30,187 nt of DNA from a virus, in IMG/VR virus record IMGVR_UViG_3300049595_000850, positions 1 to 30,187 of that record; one strand, written 5' to 3'. Each line of letters opens with the position of its first letter. The first letter of the stretch is position 1. Shown piece after piece: positions 9,666 to 27,327 of this stretch. Below the pieces are notes generated by a model. It worked only from the letters and a program-made list of their open reading frames with translations, had not been told where the DNA came from and searched no databases. A program made the position numbers and the translations under genes.

Positions 9666-10208
9666 TTATTTCATTAAATGTTTTTTCTCATTCCAAGGCT
9701 CAAAATCAGTCCAAGGTCGATAACTATGGAAAACGTAAAGAGAGCGGATTAAACCAATCTTTAAGCCAATCTCTTTAACTCTCATCGAAAACAAAGAATC
9801 AAAAGCCAGGCTATTTTCGGTAAACTTAATTTTCTTCCAGGTCTTGTACTGAAATGCCATAAAGAATCCAGCAATGTACTCTTGGATTTCTTGTACCCCA
9901 CCCCCCCCGTATGACATGGCGATGTTGTAATGATTTCTAATGTTTAAATCGTTACTAAAGGCTTTACCGTGCAATTGGTGCTTTGACCTTAGCCGATTGG
10001 TATAACATCCAACCAAGCCAAATTTGTCTCCATCTAAAGACAAAGCATCGTGTATTCTTTTGCCCCAGTCAGGAGTCAGATACAAAATATCACCGTCTTG
10101 TAAAACAATCCAATCCTCGTCATTTGCATTTATGCTGGCCAAGTATTCGTTGTAGGCTTTGCCAATGTCTTTCTCTAAACTAAAAGGATTTGAGTAAAAT
10201 ATTCTCAT
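9666..10208 (-). CDS. GT-A-fold glycosyltransferase-like protein
   Basis: A 180-residue protein with a nucleotide-sugar binding signature: ANDEDWIVLQDGDILYL, where D38-G-D40 is a DxD motif that would coordinate metal and UDP/GDP-sugar. It lacks the very N-terminal nucleotide-binding strand of full-length GT2 enzymes and is short, so it is a compact or diverged member. It overlaps the preceding glycosyltransferase by 4 nt (ATGA). An unusual G8-T-G4 run (9901-9908 plus downstream) encodes Tyr-Gly-Gly-Gly-Gly-Val near residue 101. Target may be virion proteins or host surface glycans (inference). Confidence 0.75.
   Translation of the reverse strand: MRIFYSNPFSLEKDIGKAYNEYLASINANDEDWIVLQDGDILYLTPDWGKRIHDALSLDGDKFGLVGCYTNRLRSKHQLHGKAFSNDLNIRNHYNIAMSYGGGGVQEIQEYIAGFFMAFQYKTWKKIKFTENSLAFDSLFSMRVKEIGLKIGLIRSLYVFHSYRPWTDFEPWNEKKHLMK
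9901..9908 (-). repeat. G8 homopolymer followed by T-G4
   Basis: Coding strand TAC GGG GGG GGT GGG GTA in a glycosyltransferase gene. The 14-mer GGGGGGGGTGGGGT is repeated exactly in the metallophosphoesterase gene (28859-28872). A one-base slip would truncate the enzyme. Confidence 0.88.
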
Positions 10209-10897
10209 TTGTAGTTTACAAATTCAGGATGTTTTGAGAACTCTTCGTAAAGCTTTAAATTTATTTTACCGCTTTGTCTTCTTTCATTAATTGATAAAGA
10301 CGAATCGACGGCAAAACGCCAATCTAAAACATCAAATAAATCAAGACTATTTTTTACATCCATAAATGGTTTAGGAGTTAATCCTAAGTCATGTATTCTT
10401 TGACTGTATTCGACGTGTTCAAATCCCCACAAGCCAAATTGAGGCCTCATTCCTCCAGCTACCTGAAGACATATATTTTTCAAATAAAGCATACATCCAT
10501 TAGGAGCGGTATATGTCATTAATCCTTTATCTTCTCCAGTAAATCTAATTGAGGGACTATAAATAATGTTATTGCTTTTTTTATCAAAGGTCAAGCACAA
10601 ATGATTGACTTGAGAATTAATGTAAGGCTTAAACCAATCATGTGTTTTTGGTCTTACATCGTCATCACAAAGAAAAATGTGGTCATGTTTGTCCGCTAAT
10701 TCTAAACACTTGTTTTTAGCCTTAGCTATTCCAACATTTTGCTCAAACCGATAATTAGATTTTACAGGTGTTTTGGATGCATCATCAACCACATAAATAG
10801 TAGCATTAATTGGTAAATATTTTTCCCATTCAATTAATGTTTCCTCAAATACTTCTTTTCTATTGTGCGTTGTTAAACAGACTGCAATTGTTTCCAT
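10205..10897 (-). CDS. Family 2 glycosyltransferase
   Basis: A 230-residue GT-A enzyme. The N-terminus AVCLTTHNRKEVF with YVVDDAS is the GT2 nucleotide-sugar site; IFLCDDDV (D78-D80) is the DxD motif; NGCMLYLKN, GGMRPQFGLWGFEHVEYSQR matches the acceptor-side helix with an (E/D)-(D/H) catalytic base region. Cytosolic transfer of a sugar from an activated donor is expected. It overlaps the upstream glycosyltransferase by 25 nt. The DNA is visibly more AT-rich than the neighbouring capsid genes, suggesting separate acquisition. Confidence 0.85.
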   Translation of the reverse strand: METIAVCLTTHNRKEVFEETLIEWEKYLPINATIYVVDDASKTPVKSNYRFEQNVGIAKAKNKCLELADKHDHIFLCDDDVRPKTHDWFKPYINSQVNHLCLTFDKKSNNIIYSPSIRFTGEDKGLMTYTAPNGCMLYLKNICLQVAGGMRPQFGLWGFEHVEYSQRIHDLGLTPKPFMDVKNSLDLFDVLDWRFAVDSSLSINERRQSGKINLKLYEEFSKHPEFVNYK

Positions 10898-12192
10898 TCT
10901 AAGAATTTTGGATGTTCTGAAAATAAAGTTTGATTATATTTTTGATTGAATAATTCTAGCTTAGACCACATTAAATCATTTCTATCACTTATGCTTCTTT
11001 CTTTTAAGGTTTGGCTACCTAAATGATTTACTTTAGCTGAAACAACCAACATTGGAGGCACATTAATTTTCTTTAATTGCTCAACTAATGAATTGTCAGC
11101 AAACCAAAAATCAAAATCCTCATCTAATCCGCCAATCTCTTTATATAATGACCTTTTCATCATAAACGCCCAACCTGATAAATTTCTACCACATTGCCAG
11201 CCTATTTCATTTTCTGTAACATCCTTTTGCCTAAAGTCAGCCATTGCAATAGGACTAACAATAGGATAATCCGCGGCTAATAAACCATGTAGCCAGCCAT
11301 TTTTAAATATCAAATCATTATTACAAAACATTACCCAGGGAGCATTACCACGAACTGCTCCAAAATTTAAAAATTTGTTATAATTAAATTGGGAATGAGG
11401 ATTGTATGTGGCTGCATTTTTATAGAATAAATTAGTCTTCTCTTCTATTACAATACAATTGACTTCCAAACCATTTGCCGACTGAATACAACTATCAATT
11501 GCATTTTGAGTCATTTTTGACCCTAGTTTTGAAGCGTTAGAAATAAAAATTACATCTACAATTGGATTCATACTGGTTTTTCGTTTGTTTCTAATGTTGG
11601 GGATATATTCTTGAGCAACGGTTGTTAAATCGCTATAATCATAATGATAAAGGACTTTATTTATTTTAAACTCAGACTTTAAATGTGGTTTTAAAATCTT
11701 TGCGTAACCAGCGTCCTCCGCTCTTGGTAAACTTGGAAAAGAAACCTTAGTTGAAACTTCTTTTTTTATTACTGGTATGTGATTTGGCAATCTATAATAA
11801 GCCTCCTCAGTATTGTAGTCGTTAGGAAAATCTTTAGAATAGTAACAGATTTTAGGATTGTTGCCATTTAGTGAAACCGAAACCTCAAAGGTTATACAAT
11901 CTGCATTTGAATTAATTGCCTCTAAAATACTTAAAATGTAATCTGACTCAATTCGGTCGTCACAATCTACAAAGGAAATGTATTTTCCACTTGCTAAGCC
12001 TACCATAAGATTTCTCTTATCTCCTAGCATAATGGTTTTGTTATCAATTAAATAAATAATCTCAACCTCTTTTTGTTTATTTGCCTCCAAACTTTCTAAC
12101 TGACCATAAAGCATTTCTAAAGATTTAGGCAAAAAAGTATTTCTCCTTTCAGATACTGAGGGGACTAAAATTGATAATTTAATATCGCTCAT
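10873..12192 (-). CDS. Two-domain family 2 glycosyltransferase
   Basis: A 439-residue protein with two GT-A-like domains. Domain 1 (~1-205) has LSILVPSVSERR, GDKRNLMVGLASGKYISF and VDCDDRIE (DxD at 76-79). Domain 2 (~210-439) has VDVIFISNASK, an FNYNKFLNFGAVRGNAPW segment, MFCNNDLIF (NND in place of DxD), SGWAFMMKRSLYKEIGGLDE and FWFADNSLVEQL, the usual GGLDExFF(x)DxxL acceptor motif. Bifunctional or processive transfer is possible. It is the first glycosyltransferase after the four-cysteine gene (gap 11 nt) and is AT-rich. Confidence 0.85.
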   Translation of the reverse strand: MSDIKLSILVPSVSERRNTFLPKSLEMLYGQLESLEANKQKEVEIIYLIDNKTIMLGDKRNLMVGLASGKYISFVDCDDRIESDYILSILEAINSNADCITFEVSVSLNGNNPKICYYSKDFPNDYNTEEAYYRLPNHIPVIKKEVSTKVSFPSLPRAEDAGYAKILKPHLKSEFKINKVLYHYDYSDLTTVAQEYIPNIRNKRKTSMNPIVDVIFISNASKLGSKMTQNAIDSCIQSANGLEVNCIVIEEKTNLFYKNAATYNPHSQFNYNKFLNFGAVRGNAPWVMFCNNDLIFKNGWLHGLLAADYPIVSPIAMADFRQKDVTENEIGWQCGRNLSGWAFMMKRSLYKEIGGLDEDFDFWFADNSLVEQLKKINVPPMLVVSAKVNHLGSQTLKERSISDRNDLMWSKLELFNQKYNQTLFSEHPKFLEWKQLQSV

Positions 12193-12203
12193 AATTTATT
12201 GAA

Positions 12204-12380
12204 TTAGATTTCTCCGCAAGGCTTACAATTTTTCTTAAAATACATTTCGCAAGCCGTGCCGTCGGGATTGCTTGGCTCCTCATTAAAGTAGATTTGAGCC
12301 TCGCTAGGCTTTGCAGTAAAGCGCTGGCAAGTGTTTTTAAGCTTGCATCTTTGAGGCTTACACATCGTAAATGTTGCCAT
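12204..12380 (-). CDS. Four-cysteine small protein, paralogue of the 27.4-kb protein
   Basis: A 58-residue protein read from ATG 12380 to TAA 12204. Cysteines at 7, 12, 18 and 44 are in the pattern C-x4-C-x5-C-x-RFTAKPSE ... C-[DE]-MY, with extra Cys at 52 and 55. The same pattern and the identical block RFTAKPSE occur in the protein at 27360-27557. Four spaced cysteines suggest Zn or Fe-S binding. It is the first gene after the capsid terminator and heads the glycosyltransferase cassette. A longer open frame over the same DNA (12179-12427) has no such conservation and is rejected. Function unknown. Confidence 0.82.
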   Translation of the reverse strand: MATFTMCKPQRCKLKNTCQRFTAKPSEAQIYFNEEPSNPDGTACEMYFKKNCKPCGEI

Positions 12381-12425: not shown

Positions 12426-12455
12426 AAAAAAAGGCTGGAAAAATTCCAGCCTTTT
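12426..12455 (-). terminator. Intrinsic terminator after major capsid gene
   Basis: A near-perfect hairpin: AAGGCTGGAA (12431-12440), loop AAA, TTCCAGCCTT (12444-12453), extended by A/T pairs and followed on the minus strand by a T run (to 12426). It lies 29 bp after the capsid stop and separates it from the glycosyltransferase cassette. The flanking A and T runs could make it bidirectional. Confidence 0.9.
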
Positions 12456-12483: not shown

Positions 12484-13755
12484 TTAGGTAGTCTCAAGAA
12501 GCGCCTTTGCAGTTGCAAACACACCTTTAACCAATACTGGAGTATCGTTAGCTGAGATAAATTGTACCAATCTCTGCTCGATTCTTACAGTCTTCAAGTT
12601 GTCGATAAAGTCATCGCCAGACTCTCCGATTGCTACTTGCAAACCACTTCTCAAACGTACGTTGATAACTGAAAGGTCACCACCTACGAATTGTGCAGCC
12701 GTTCCAGTCAAAGCGTTTGTTGGGATAATGTTTACACCCCAAGCAGAAATTCCACCTTGTGCGTTGAAAGTAACGCCAGCTGGTAGGATATAATTCTTGT
12801 CTGCATCCTTCTCAGAAAGCATTAGGTGATACTGTCCAGTCTCAACGAATACGCCAGTAGCAGTTCCGTTTGCAGCTCTTACTTGAGCGATGATTCCGTG
12901 GATTACATCCCAGTTAGTAGCAGCCTCAACACCACCAGCCATTGAACCGCCAGTAAATGTGGTAGACTTAGAAAGCAAACCAGCAAGCTGAGGAGATGTA
13001 CCGTTACCAGTAAACAATTGATTTTCGATAACTGTCTCTACACGCTTAACTCCATTGGATTGGATGTAAGAAGCCAAGTAAGCGGCATCTTCCAACATTT
13101 CCATAGAAACCTTCATATGAACACCAATCTTCTCAACCTTAGCTCTCTGCTCCTTGTATTGAACGTCAAGTTGGGTTTTCTCAACACCTTCACCAATCAT
13201 TACTGGAGTTCCCTCCTGGTCGTACTCTTCAACCCATACTGCATACTGAGTTCCGATTGCTCCTACGCTTGCGTTAGCAAGGTAAACCAACAAACGCTGA
13301 CGGATAGGAGAAACAACACCTGTAAACTCAGAGATTGTAACTTGTCCTGAAGACGCTTCGTTAGCGATTGTAGAAGCTAGAGTAATAGTTCCAACTGCTT
13401 TCTCATTGATTTCGAATACCAAAGGAGCCTTTAGACGAGCGTTAGGCTCAGACTTCAATCTTTCGATTTCAGCTTGCACAGGAGCGTAAGCCTTCATGAA
13501 AGCGGTTTTGAAATCTTCAGCGCTTACTTCTTTGTCTACTGCATTCTTTTGCATTGCAATGTCCAACTTATCAAGTTGCTTTTGCATTTCTGCTGCCTCT
13601 TCTTTGGTTACTACACCATTAAAAGACTTTAATAGGCTTTCAGCCTTTTCGAAAGCCTCGTTGGCTTTAGTTTCTGCATTTGCTGCTTTTGCCTTTAGAG
13701 CCTCGCCAGCCTCTGCAATTACTGCCTTTACGGCATCAATTGTTAGATTTTCCAT
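12484..13755 (-). CDS. Major capsid protein, HK97 fold
   Basis: A 423-residue protein. Residues 1-105 form an Ala/Glu/Lys-rich coiled coil (EAGEALKAKAANAETKANEA), typical of the HK97 delta/scaffold domain cleaved by the protease. The rest matches the phage_capsid family: EASSGQVTISEFTGVVSPIR, VGAIGTQYAVWVEEYD, the E-loop-like segment with VEKTQLDVQYKEQRAKVEKI, then ENQLFTGNGTSPQLAGLLS and a C-terminal domain with VRIEQRLVQFISANDTPVLV. It overlaps the protease stop by 13 nt and is followed by a strong terminator. The mature form is expected to begin near residue 105-110 (inference). Confidence 0.93.
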   Translation of the reverse strand: MENLTIDAVKAVIAEAGEALKAKAANAETKANEAFEKAESLLKSFNGVVTKEEAAEMQKQLDKLDIAMQKNAVDKEVSAEDFKTAFMKAYAPVQAEIERLKSEPNARLKAPLVFEINEKAVGTITLASTIANEASSGQVTISEFTGVVSPIRQRLLVYLANASVGAIGTQYAVWVEEYDQEGTPVMIGEGVEKTQLDVQYKEQRAKVEKIGVHMKVSMEMLEDAAYLASYIQSNGVKRVETVIENQLFTGNGTSPQLAGLLSKSTTFTGGSMAGGVEAATNWDVIHGIIAQVRAANGTATGVFVETGQYHLMLSEKDADKNYILPAGVTFNAQGGISAWGVNIIPTNALTGTAAQFVGGDLSVINVRLRSGLQVAIGESGDDFIDNLKTVRIEQRLVQFISANDTPVLVKGVFATAKALLETT

Positions 13756-14833: not shown

Positions 14834-15028
14834 CTAGGCCTCAAGAATTTCCCTATATTTTAAAGGAATATCCTCAATTCCTTCAATGACGTTGTTAATC
14901 AAATAAAACAAAAGACCAGTAACCAATTCTGCTTTTGTCTTTGGCATTATTCCATTATTTGCCATTTTTAGAGTAGCCTGGTAAATAGATATTTTTTTAG
15001 CTACCATTTTTTCGAATTCTCTTGTCAT
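14834..15028 (-). CDS. Small helical protein (64 aa), function unknown
   Basis: A 64-residue, mostly helical protein (MTREFEKMVAKKISIYQATL, then TGLLFYLINNVIEGIEDIP). It overlaps the minor head gene stop by 4 nt (ATGA), implying translational coupling, and lies before the protease. Its position suggests a head-assembly role, but no motif is recognised. Confidence 0.75.
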   Translation of the reverse strand: MTREFEKMVAKKISIYQATLKMANNGIMPKTKAELVTGLLFYLINNVIEGIEDIPLKYREILEA

Positions 15029-16629
15029 AGCTTTCCTCTTAATGTTTGTGGCACTATTGTTTTAGTTCTGTTTAAAGTGACAACAAAGTCCGTGTATTTT
15101 ATTCCTAATTGTCTAAATGATGCCGTAGGCGCTTTTATCGTATAACCATCGTATCCCTTGGAGGTTGCCCAACCTCCAAAATCTATATATAACTTTAATT
15201 CAGTCATCATTTCGGCAAATTCAACTGGATTTGAAGCTGCAAATCGACCATCAAATAACTTAGTTTGATTTGTTTTGGCTTCCCAATTTTTTATAACCAT
15301 TTTTTCATAAGCCTCCCTTTCTGTTTCCCATTGCGAATAAAGAGAACCATAACTGTCTATTTTCATATCTGATTTTTTAATCAATGCTGGCAAAACATTT
15401 TTATCTTTTCCAATAGCGTAAAGATTTGCAACTGAGTATTGTGATTCAGCCGCCCAATATGTACCGTTTCCAAAAGCGTTATCTCTAGCTCCATACAATT
15501 CGCCTTTAATATATCTGTTTATTAAATTTTCAGCTTTTAGATTTTGAGAAGGCACATCTGAAATACCTCTGTAAAGAATTGTATATTCAGGGTCTTTCGA
15601 TAATCTAATAAACTCCTCGTTTGATACAACCTTTGGAAGGCCTCTAAATCCTTGAAGTTCTGCAATTGCATTTTGTACGGTTTCATACTTTCCGTCAATA
15701 AGTTCAGGGTCTGAAATGTTTTTATTGCCTTTTACTATTTTGAGATATTCATTTTTAAATTGGTTGTAATCTGTATATTTTGCTTGAGTTGGTATAAACG
15801 CTTGCTCAGCTTCTATTCTAGGCGTAATACCTTGCGACGGCGTGGCTGGAATTCTTGGAGTTGCATTAAACCATTCAGGGAAATTACGACGCGCGTAAGC
15901 CTCGGAAACATAGACAACAACGCAACTGCAATTAATTGTTTGAGATGGGCCGCCATTTATATCGCCTGGCTTATCCATTAAAACAACCTCGCCTTTTGGT
16001 GTTAAAAAATCAAAAAATCCGTTTGCTGGTATTGGTTTATTTTGCGCTTGGATATGTTGAAACCTTGGCTCCTTAGCTCCTCCATGTATCCACAATTTCC
16101 AAAGAGTTGTTCCAGTCTGTTTGGCCCAATCCTCGGCGGAACGTTTCTTTCCTTCGTTGTAAGCTCGTGTCGATTCAGTCCTAGCAATTGCCCTGGCTCT
16201 CGCAATATTTGGTATTTGCTCAAGTAAAAGACGCTCCAGCTGGAACGGGTTTAAACCTTGCTCAATTCCTTCGCCAAGTATATTTTGGATTTGCTCTAAC
16301 GTGTTATCATTTACGCTAGTAATTAGATTTCCAAGGTTTTGCAAAACCCAATCCTTAATCCATTCTCTCCAGGTATTTAAAAAGAAATCGTCAGGAATGT
16401 AAGCCTTTTCGCGGTTGTCTTGTCTTATTCTGTTAAACTCTTGCTTAGCCGACTCAACAAAGACCGTTTGGTAGAACTTAATATAAGCCTCTTGCATTGG
16501 CAAAGGCGACGGATTTGGCTTGGCTTGTAGCTTTAGAGCCGCGGTAAATAGCTTAATCCCAAGGCGCTCGTATTTCTTTAGGTCAGATTGTGCCGACCTT
16601 CTAACCTTGGAATAATTTATAAGCTTCAT
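15025..16629 (-). CDS. Minor head protein (Mu gpF-like) fused to ADP-ribosyltransferase-like domain
   Basis: A 534-residue two-part protein. Residues ~30-265 match the Mu gpF/SPP1 gp7 head morphogenesis family: IARTESTRAYNEGKKR, WKLWIHGGAKEPRFQHI, and INCSCVVVYV near the end of the domain. Residues ~285-534 have an ADP-ribosyltransferase-like pattern: ILYRGIS with R354, FGNGTYWAA (386-394) resembling the PARP-type G-x-G-x-Y-[FW]-A strand, GYDGYTI and a terminal DFVVTLNRTK. ARTs usually have Glu where this Asp may sit, so activity is uncertain. It follows the portal by 3 bp. Phage T4 Alt is a precedent for a capsid-carried, injected ART. Confidence 0.8.
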   Translation of the reverse strand: MKLINYSKVRRSAQSDLKKYERLGIKLFTAALKLQAKPNPSPLPMQEAYIKFYQTVFVESAKQEFNRIRQDNREKAYIPDDFFLNTWREWIKDWVLQNLGNLITSVNDNTLEQIQNILGEGIEQGLNPFQLERLLLEQIPNIARARAIARTESTRAYNEGKKRSAEDWAKQTGTTLWKLWIHGGAKEPRFQHIQAQNKPIPANGFFDFLTPKGEVVLMDKPGDINGGPSQTINCSCVVVYVSEAYARRNFPEWFNATPRIPATPSQGITPRIEAEQAFIPTQAKYTDYNQFKNEYLKIVKGNKNISDPELIDGKYETVQNAIAELQGFRGLPKVVSNEEFIRLSKDPEYTILYRGISDVPSQNLKAENLINRYIKGELYGARDNAFGNGTYWAAESQYSVANLYAIGKDKNVLPALIKKSDMKIDSYGSLYSQWETEREAYEKMVIKNWEAKTNQTKLFDGRFAASNPVEFAEMMTELKLYIDFGGWATSKGYDGYTIKAPTASFRQLGIKYTDFVVTLNRTKTIVPQTLRGKL

Positions 16630-26619: not shown

Positions 26620-26692
26620 CTATTTGTAAAAATATTTTCATCAAAATCGAATATTTTTTTTTCGTGTCGGTTTTTATGCTTTTAACTTGCAT

Positions 26693-27013
26693 ATGGAAGA
26701 CGACAAAATTTTAAATCCGTTTGGCTACCTGGAGGCTACCAGGGTGCTGGACGAAAACAGAAAGCCAGTAGATTGGTGGATGCAATATTTGGAGTTTAAC
26801 CAGGCGGTCGAGGAAAACGAATTTTACGTTTTGTTTGCCGATGGATTGCTGGTTAAAAAAGGACGGTCTAAATACAAAAGTAGCCAATACACCTTTGGCG
26901 ACGAGTACAAATCATTTAAGCAATATTATGACGAGAAAAAGACTTTTAAGAATGACTCCAACGATAATTGGTATTTTATTGCTCATGGCATTATTGATGA
27001 AAATACTAAGTAA
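26693..27013 (+). CDS. Hypothetical protein (106 aa), plus-strand island
   Basis: I use ATG 26693; a TTG six bases upstream gives two more residues. The protein is aromatic and acidic (MEDDKILNPFGYLEATRVLD, then WWMQYLEFNQAVEENEFYVL). It is the first gene of the only plus-strand transcript and its stop shares an A with the next start (TAATG). No family recognised. Confidence 0.8.
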   Translation: MEDDKILNPFGYLEATRVLDENRKPVDWWMQYLEFNQAVEENEFYVLFADGLLVKKGRSKYKSSQYTFGDEYKSFKQYYDEKKTFKNDSNDNWYFIAHGIIDENTK

Positions 27014-27273
27014 TGGAGAATAATTTCTTTGCCGTCCAAGTTTGTGTTGTACTTGACGAAATACGGGACTTGCTAATTGCAAAAAATCTAAAATACGGAA
27101 ACTCAGCTCTTGAGCCTCTTGGCGTGTTTAGTCAGTTGTCCGCTAAGGAGGGACTACTGGTTAGAATTGACGACAAGCTAAAGCGGATTAAAAATGGTAG
27201 CTTAGAGCGAGACGATGAGGACGTAATAAACGATTTGATTGGTTACCTGGTCTTGCTAAAGATAAATGGATAA
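27013..27273 (+). CDS. MazG-like / nucleotide-modification-associated pyrophosphohydrolase-like protein
   Basis: An 86-residue all-alpha protein with DEIRDLLIAKNLKYGNSALE, RIDDKLKRIKNG and DDEDVINDLIGYLVLLK. This K-x-x-K-Y-G-x-S ... R-x-x-D-K-x-x-R ... E-D-x-x-x-D-L-x-x-Y arrangement is the MazG/dUTPase-like fold (DUF1599, nucleotide modification associated). Acidic residues D70 and D74 would hold Mg. It may hydrolyse NTP/dNTP, adjusting the pool or removing an alarmone or modified nucleotide. Confidence 0.75.
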   Translation: MENNFFAVQVCVVLDEIRDLLIAKNLKYGNSALEPLGVFSQLSAKEGLLVRIDDKLKRIKNGSLERDDEDVINDLIGYLVLLKING

Positions 27274-27301: not shown

Positions 27302-27327
27302 TTAATGTGTAATATATTGCACATTAA
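27302..27327. promoter_or_regulatory. 26-bp near-perfect palindrome
   Basis: Arms TTAATGTG (27302-27309) and CACATTAA (27320-27327) flank T-AATATATT-G; only one base pair breaks symmetry. It lies 33 bp before the four-cysteine gene and next to TAGTTTTT (27330-27337), seven of eight bases of a -7 box. Operator, terminator-like stem or protein-binding origin site are options. Confidence 0.7.

Follow-up and report, generated by a model that had tools for sequence, protein, structure and literature searches.

Two small cysteine-rich proteins of one phage belong to a widespread and uncharacterised phage-borne family

Why would a single virus carry, at two separate places, two small proteins built around the same spacing of cysteines, and what might such proteins do? 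The source is a 30,187-base virus record that was analysed as one window, the window being this whole stretch of DNA. The two open reading frames, which we call P1 and P2, were confirmed at the positions given in Table 1; they encode the sequences MATFTMCKPQRCKLKNTCQRFTAKPSEAQIYFNEEPSNPDGTACEMYFKKNCKPCGEI (P1) and MPDITMCPGTNCLYKESCYRFTAKPSEYMQSYFMKPPIKDGKCDMYWGDLSEAIWGQLQDIVKPK (P2).

The two proteins and their descent

The pattern C-x4-C-x5-C-x-RFTAKPSE...Q-x-YF...C-[DE]-MY, which a preliminary description had given as common to both proteins, is exact. That description called them four-cysteine proteins; this is correct for P2, while P1 has six cysteines because its tail NCKPCGEI adds two. 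When P1 was used as query against the window, P2 was the sole further match, 51% identical over residues 2-48 at E 3.7e-9. The BLOSUM62 local score of the pair is 99, whereas 5000 shuffles of P2 reached no more than 52, and the motif C-x4-C-x5-C-x-R[FY] occurs twice in the open reading frames of the window versus 0 times in 200 window shuffles in two-base blocks. Judged by these sequence comparisons, P1 and P2 are homologous beyond reasonable doubt.

Table 1. Features of the window discussed in the text
Feature	Coordinates	Strand	Properties
P1	12204..12380	minus	58 aa; Cys 7, 12, 18, 44 + 51, 54; tail KKNCKPCGEI; PHROG 20586, E 1.3e-8
P2	27360..27557	plus	65 aa; Cys 7, 12, 18, 43; predicted C-terminal helix 49-62; PHROG 20586, E 1.5e-16
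Major capsid protein	12484..13755	minus	PF05065, 68.2 bits; directly upstream of P1
Intrinsic terminator	12429..12455	minus	between major capsid gene and P1; compensatory stem changes in relatives
Glycosyltransferase family 2	10873..12192	minus	PF00535, 35 bits; directly downstream of P1
Glycosyltransferase-like protein, same cassette	10205..10897	minus	PF00535 at its cut-off, 23.3 bits
Glycosyltransferase-like protein, last in cassette	9666..10208	minus	PHROG 14179 glycosyltransferase, E 2.4e-35
Small gene before P2	27013..27273	plus	PHROG 1485, unknown function; no Pfam hit
Operator-like imperfect palindrome AATGTGTAATATATTGCACATT	27304..27325	.	34 bp before P2 start

As had been noted, the DNA of the two genes differs at synonymous sites: four of the eight codons of the RFTAKPSE block differ synonymously. 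The median pairwise dN/dS is 0.114 for P1 (48 sequences; 799 of 1128 pairs usable) and 0.153 for P2 (29 sequences; 186 of 406 pairs usable), and both proteins are under purifying selection. In a tree of 84 rows the P1 proteins group together as a single, fully supported clade, and the stem leading to it measures 1.9 changes per column. The tree does not place this clade among the P2-type sequences, and the earlier term paralogues is stronger than the evidence; the two copies may have arisen by duplication within this phage group or have entered it separately. Among 17 P1-bearing records of at least 20 kb, 13 also carry P2, three carry P1 only and one has two P1 copies together with a third type (P3); a P1-type copy was present in two of the 30 records chosen for P2. 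Copy types were assigned by score and position, and five were read as sequence. From these copy counts it follows that P1 and P2 are old as a pair and have been kept together stably by this group of phages.

A tandem, slightly overlapping pair of P3 followed by P2 was seen in five loci (L134, L143, L206, L215 and L220). The IMG/VR records 3300033996_000169 and 3300044631_000684 carry diverged copies of the capsid gene or of P1 near both contig ends, perhaps as a result of assembly across strain variants.

Family membership, conserved residues and predicted structure

Both proteins match the profile of PHROG 20586, P1 over positions 2-42 and P2 over positions 1-59 of its 59 positions, and the same profile was matched by 32 of 33 diverse members (E up to 0.1). 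The library annotates this entry as 'unknown function'. The proteins had been put forward as not yet described; that stands for their function, but the family had already been catalogued, so the finding, though no artefact, is not entirely new. Since both match an entry of unknown function, the family is catalogued yet uncharacterised. Scanning IMG/VR with P1 gave 73 relatives in 72 loci, scanning with P2 gave 145 relatives, of which 80 were kept, and a broader alignment gave at least 572 family matches among at least 599 matched stretches. Hundreds of IMG/VR contigs and a few cellular ones thus carry a member, and nearly all members are small stand-alone proteins. The phages concerned are those of Bacteroidota, cyanobacteria, Celeribacter and Pseudomonas; far from being absent in other phages, the cysteine pattern is present in many of them, and no characterised family was matched. 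Twenty-two annotated phage records gave a match at E up to 10, with GenBank/RefSeq duplicates counted. The carriers include Cellulophaga, Nonlabens and Maribacter phages, Synechococcus phage S-CBS4, Celeribacter phage P12053L, a metagenomic myovirus, Pseudomonas phage vB_PF_Y1-MI and others, and the copies are labelled 'hypothetical protein' where annotated. A stand-alone copy is present on a Pontibacillus plasmid. The copies on seven cellular contigs from very different phyla are probably integrated or mis-binned phage DNA, and in one phylum sample the family was found below E 1e-9 in 2 of 198 genomes. The family is real, widespread, uncharacterised and phage-borne.

To define the conserved residues an alignment of 77 rows was used, composed of the two proteins of the window and 75 locus proteins (the 77 selected minus L104 and L003) with less than 86% identity and an HMM E value below 1e-8. 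Invariant in all 77 rows are only C7, C12, C18, R20 and C43 in P2 numbering, and the family signature is C-x4-C-x5-C-x-R...C. D3, Q30, F33 and P37 are conserved in at least 90% of the rows. The RFTAKPSE block had been regarded as invariant; it varies within each type, for example to RYTAKASE and RYLTKPGE, and since the invariant set comprises only the four cysteines and the arginine, the identity of this block in P1 and P2 reflects local conservation, not a family signature. Because the rows came from similarity searches, members that lost a cysteine could be under-represented in this count. The additional terminal C-x2-C is present in all P1 proteins listed; L413, a P1-like variant from another record, ends before this tail.

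AlphaFold models of P1 and P2 are of only fair confidence (pLDDT 77.0 and pTM 0.52 for P1, 80.5 and 0.55 for P2), and the five models of P1 are widely spread. They predict mostly loop with a short helix at residues 19-22, to which P2 adds the C-terminal helix listed in Table 1. So little predicted secondary structure combined with four invariant cysteines has the look of a fold held together by a metal, and the suggestion that the proteins bind metal is plausible in view of these cysteines. A metal-clamped mini-domain is probably the physical nature of both proteins, as far as their sequences tell. In CCCH zinc fingers three cysteines are followed by a histidine ligand three residues after the third cysteine; none of the alignments contains an invariant histidine, and the fourth candidate ligand is a distant cysteine. 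Searches against zinc-finger families, toxins and defence proteins gave no match above cut-off, and the PDB sequence and fold searches found no relative and no solved structure. A fold search of BFVD gave 23 matches at E up to 10, eight of them at E up to 0.001; the named ones among these best eight are all uncharacterised phage proteins. No mention of 'DUF6078' (a cellular family discussed below) or 'phrog_20586' was found in the literature searched, and a general search gave unrelated phage papers only.

Genomic surroundings of the two copies

P1 stands at the head of a glycosyltransferase cassette, as had been described, with methyltransferase-like and glycosyltransferase genes downstream. 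It lies behind the capsid gene in all 72 informative loci (80 capsid loci, eight of which are too short); in 60 of these P1 was recognised by its pattern and in 12 by reading the translations, where FF, HY, HF or YY replaces YF and all carry P1. Counted over 56 non-redundant loci, the capsid gene lies one or two genes upstream of P1 in 54, and a glycosyltransferase-like gene is found two to four genes behind P1 in 49. The genes downstream of P1 change between relatives.

The stem of the intrinsic terminator between the capsid gene and P1 is conserved with compensatory changes in 31 non-redundant upstream regions, and it folds with an energy of -21.2, where shuffled sequences reach -12.0 +/- 2.5 (z -3.6). 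Scanned as a whole for terminators, the region gave three sites versus 3.1 in shuffles; because this is no excess, the case for the terminator rests on its conservation and on the z-score. Given the conserved terminator, the cassette that follows probably forms a unit of its own. P1 appears to head its own transcription unit, for which a putative Bacteroidota-type promoter may possibly lie in the gap between the capsid gene and P1. Elsewhere on the minus strand, the product of 15025-16629 resembles a Mu F-like head protein (PF04233, 26.8 bits, below the cut-off of 29.6), and its C-terminal half looks ADP-ribosyltransferase-like by eye (YRGIS...GNGTYW), with no Pfam hit.

P2 is located on the plus strand behind the small genes 26687-27013 and 27013-27273, and is followed by a convergent minus-strand block (28292-27744 and on). 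The second of these small genes had been described as MazG-like and as lying on the opposite strand. It shares the strand of P2, and the MazG-like label found no confirmation in Pfam or in the PHROG entry of the gene. Its cluster was found in 48 of 122 P2 loci. The dyad AATGTGTAATATATTGCACATT is present as one copy in the window. Dyads at family loci lie just upstream of the family gene in 28 of 31 non-redundant copies and further upstream in the other three, and the P2 dyad is kept in several sequence versions among relatives; going by sequence, the dyad is a candidate operator. In annotated phages the neighbours of the homologues are often genes for replication or recombination, polymerases or nucleotide metabolism, such as a primase/helicase in Panino, an exonuclease in S-CBS4 and polymerases in ct2os315. 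The nearest genes of the replication/recombination type in Celeribacter phage P12053L are several genes away from the homologue, and most neighbours in the Cellulophaga phages are hypothetical.

Possible roles and relation to known systems

The explanation that we favour, which as a whole is tentative, is that each protein is a mini-domain, clamped by Zn or Fe-S, with an accessory role in gene regulation. P1 and P2 would each be a free-standing copy of the same small domain, C-x4-C-x5-C-x-R-x~22-C, in which the four invariant cysteines would clamp zinc or an iron-sulfur cluster that takes the place of a hydrophobic core, and the domain would bind either to DNA or to the transcription machinery. 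P2 would be active with an early plus-strand gene set and have its own operator-like site. P1 would be the diverged copy, bearing an extra CxxC in its tail; it would act from a late unit that begins after the capsid terminator and includes the methyltransferase/glycosyltransferase cassette. The invariant residues, the dN/dS values, the stand-alone form, a fusion in phage MinM2, the link to DUF6078, the replication-type neighbours and the P2 dyad are in favour of this explanation. The fusion to an AlpA helix-turn-helix and the DUF6078 link point to gene regulation more than to the adaptor or anti-host factor proposed in the preliminary description. Against it, P1 and P2 show no helix-turn-helix match and no recognisable DNA-binding motif, the MinM2 fusion is effectively one lineage, a virion or cassette role would suit the position of P1 after the capsid gene equally well, and the only fair AlphaFold models, the hhalign probability for DUF6078 (given below), the lack of a helix-turn-helix match over a Pfam cut-off in the C-terminal part of that family and a lost cysteine in one of its copies (L345) count on the same side. 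Overall, a regulatory role is a modest inference from these data; like the early and late timing, it is less well supported than metal binding.

The genomic position of P1 would also suit an accessory of the capsid or of its modification, either packaged or aiding virion decoration by the methyltransferase and glycosyltransferases, with another role for P2. The constant place behind the capsid gene, the frequent glycosyltransferase-like gene within four genes of P1 and the single P1 clade on its long stem with its own CxxC tail all agree with this; but a terminator separates P1 from the capsid gene, the downstream genes vary between relatives, the P1-like copy L413 lacks the CxxC tail, and the domain is also found in stretches where neither capsid nor sugar genes are annotated. 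Such a role is possible but unlikely. P2 lies among small genes that differ from relative to relative and have no known function; this could indicate an inhibitor for host takeover or counter-defence which blocks a host protein early, the metal only holding the fold, and the spread of the family over phages of very different hosts is what a conserved host target would give. Such inhibitors usually evolve fast, whereas P1 is strongly constrained (dN/dS 0.11); the PADLOC models matched none of the 33 members, and the P1 copy, which follows the capsid gene in 72 of 72 informative loci, is at an odd site for an early inhibitor. We judge this role to be rather improbable.

The nature of the presumed bound group is a further point on which readings divide. 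A CxxC knuckle is usual in zinc sites, and the conserved core has none; C-x4-C-x5-C with a distant fourth cysteine is reminiscent of cluster-binding transcription factors, and small phage-borne four-cysteine WhiB-like proteins are known. These points would speak for an Fe-S sensor of redox state or nitric oxide, working in the manner of WhiB or Rrf2, instead of a zinc protein. Zinc and Fe-S ligation are, however, indistinguishable from sequence alone, and the spacing and motif that define WhiB are lacking. We consider a sensor of this type unlikely as well. Spurious or decaying reading frames without function, which the short length and the 'hypothetical protein' labels might suggest, are hardly credible: the selection data (dN/dS 0.11-0.15) refute them, and the cysteines invariant in 77 of 77 rows, the fixed position and the recurrence in unrelated phages are equally at odds with them.

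Extending the regulatory explanation, the four-cysteine domain, with metal or Fe-S, might be a phage-wide mini-regulator which steers transcription in phages of Bacteroidota, cyanobacteria and proteobacteria, used alone, in early/late pairs (P2/P1), in tandem or fused to a helix-turn-helix, and captured by cells as DUF6078. This is a speculative proposal that we regard as quite improbable. If true, phages would use metal or redox state to switch the programme of their own genes, and the domain would be a non-actinobacterial counterpart of phage WhiB. The domain is retained by Cellulophaga, Nonlabens, Maribacter, Synechococcus, Celeribacter and Pseudomonas phages and by hundreds of environmental phages, while the libraries searched assign it neither a function nor a solved fold. 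Its invariant core, the two contexts and the links to DUF6078 and AlpA provide concrete hypotheses and culturable phages for testing them.

Among proteins with an annotated role, a connection leads to an AlpA regulator of Synechococcus phage MinM2. The domain is recognisable at the N-terminus of this 178-amino acid protein (25.3 bits, E 8.4e-5, with a model built without MinM2), whereas the C-terminal half matches the Pfam Phage_AlpA helix-turn-helix (21.9 bits, cut-off 21). The protein is annotated as 'AlpA family regulatory protein' and is found in three records of equal length. The cysteine domain is shared with P1 and P2, and the added helix-turn-helix belongs to MinM2 only. With the MinM2 domain as query, a viral scan gave 29 pattern matches and no relative. 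Cyanophage relatives of S-CBS4 (L265-L299) carry about 50 additional residues in frame on the N-terminal side of the cysteine domain, a module which L300 and L301 do not have; in L300 an HNH-like open reading frame, read by eye, replaces it. In L330:2-337 a first half-domain with two of the four cysteines is in frame with a LuxR-type helix-turn-helix (23.8 bits, cut-off 23.5). It is probably a remnant of recombination and was set aside.

DUF6078 (PF19555) is a cellular family of about 145 amino acids. Its N-terminus reads C17-x4-C22-x5-C28-x-R30...C59, with the spacing of the phage family, and four aligned DUF6078 proteins from four genomes share C-x4-C-x5-C-x-R-x2-A...C with the same invariant residues. 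An hhalign comparison of the phage family with DUF6078 gave a score of 28.0 (E 1.8e-4, probability 48%), as compared to a best of 17.2 in 100 column shuffles, and by hmmscan two phage members matched DUF6078 with E 0.016 and 0.024, the same region being aligned. The best phage member reached 16 bits and thus missed the cut-off of 27 bits, and P1 and P2 themselves gave no match to the profile at E up to 5. DUF6078 was found in 0 of 198 genomes of a first draw and four times above cut-off among 395 of a second; in one genome a second copy, L345, has lost the third cysteine. The conserved C-terminal half of DUF6078 (YYRxxR...Q...I) is absent from P1 and P2, and an assignment of this half as helix-turn-helix was unsupported by the Pfam cut-off and by a PDB sequence search. 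On the alignment evidence, the phage domain and DUF6078 are probably homologous.

WhiB-like (Wbl) regulators have the spacing C-x2-C-x5-C and the motif G-[VI]-W-G-G. Small four-cysteine Wbl proteins are also phage-borne, including on mycobacteriophages. Similar to the P1/P2 family, these regulators are small, carried by phages and marked by four invariant cysteines; unlike them, the present family has C-x4-C-x5-C, the Wbl motif is absent from its alignments, and none of 33 members matched the Wbl Pfam at E up to 0.5. PHROG 20586 is the same family as P1 and P2, for which the library assigns no function; beyond that entry, the comparison adds the P1 type, which has six cysteines and follows the capsid gene, as well as the fusion to AlpA and the probable link to DUF6078.
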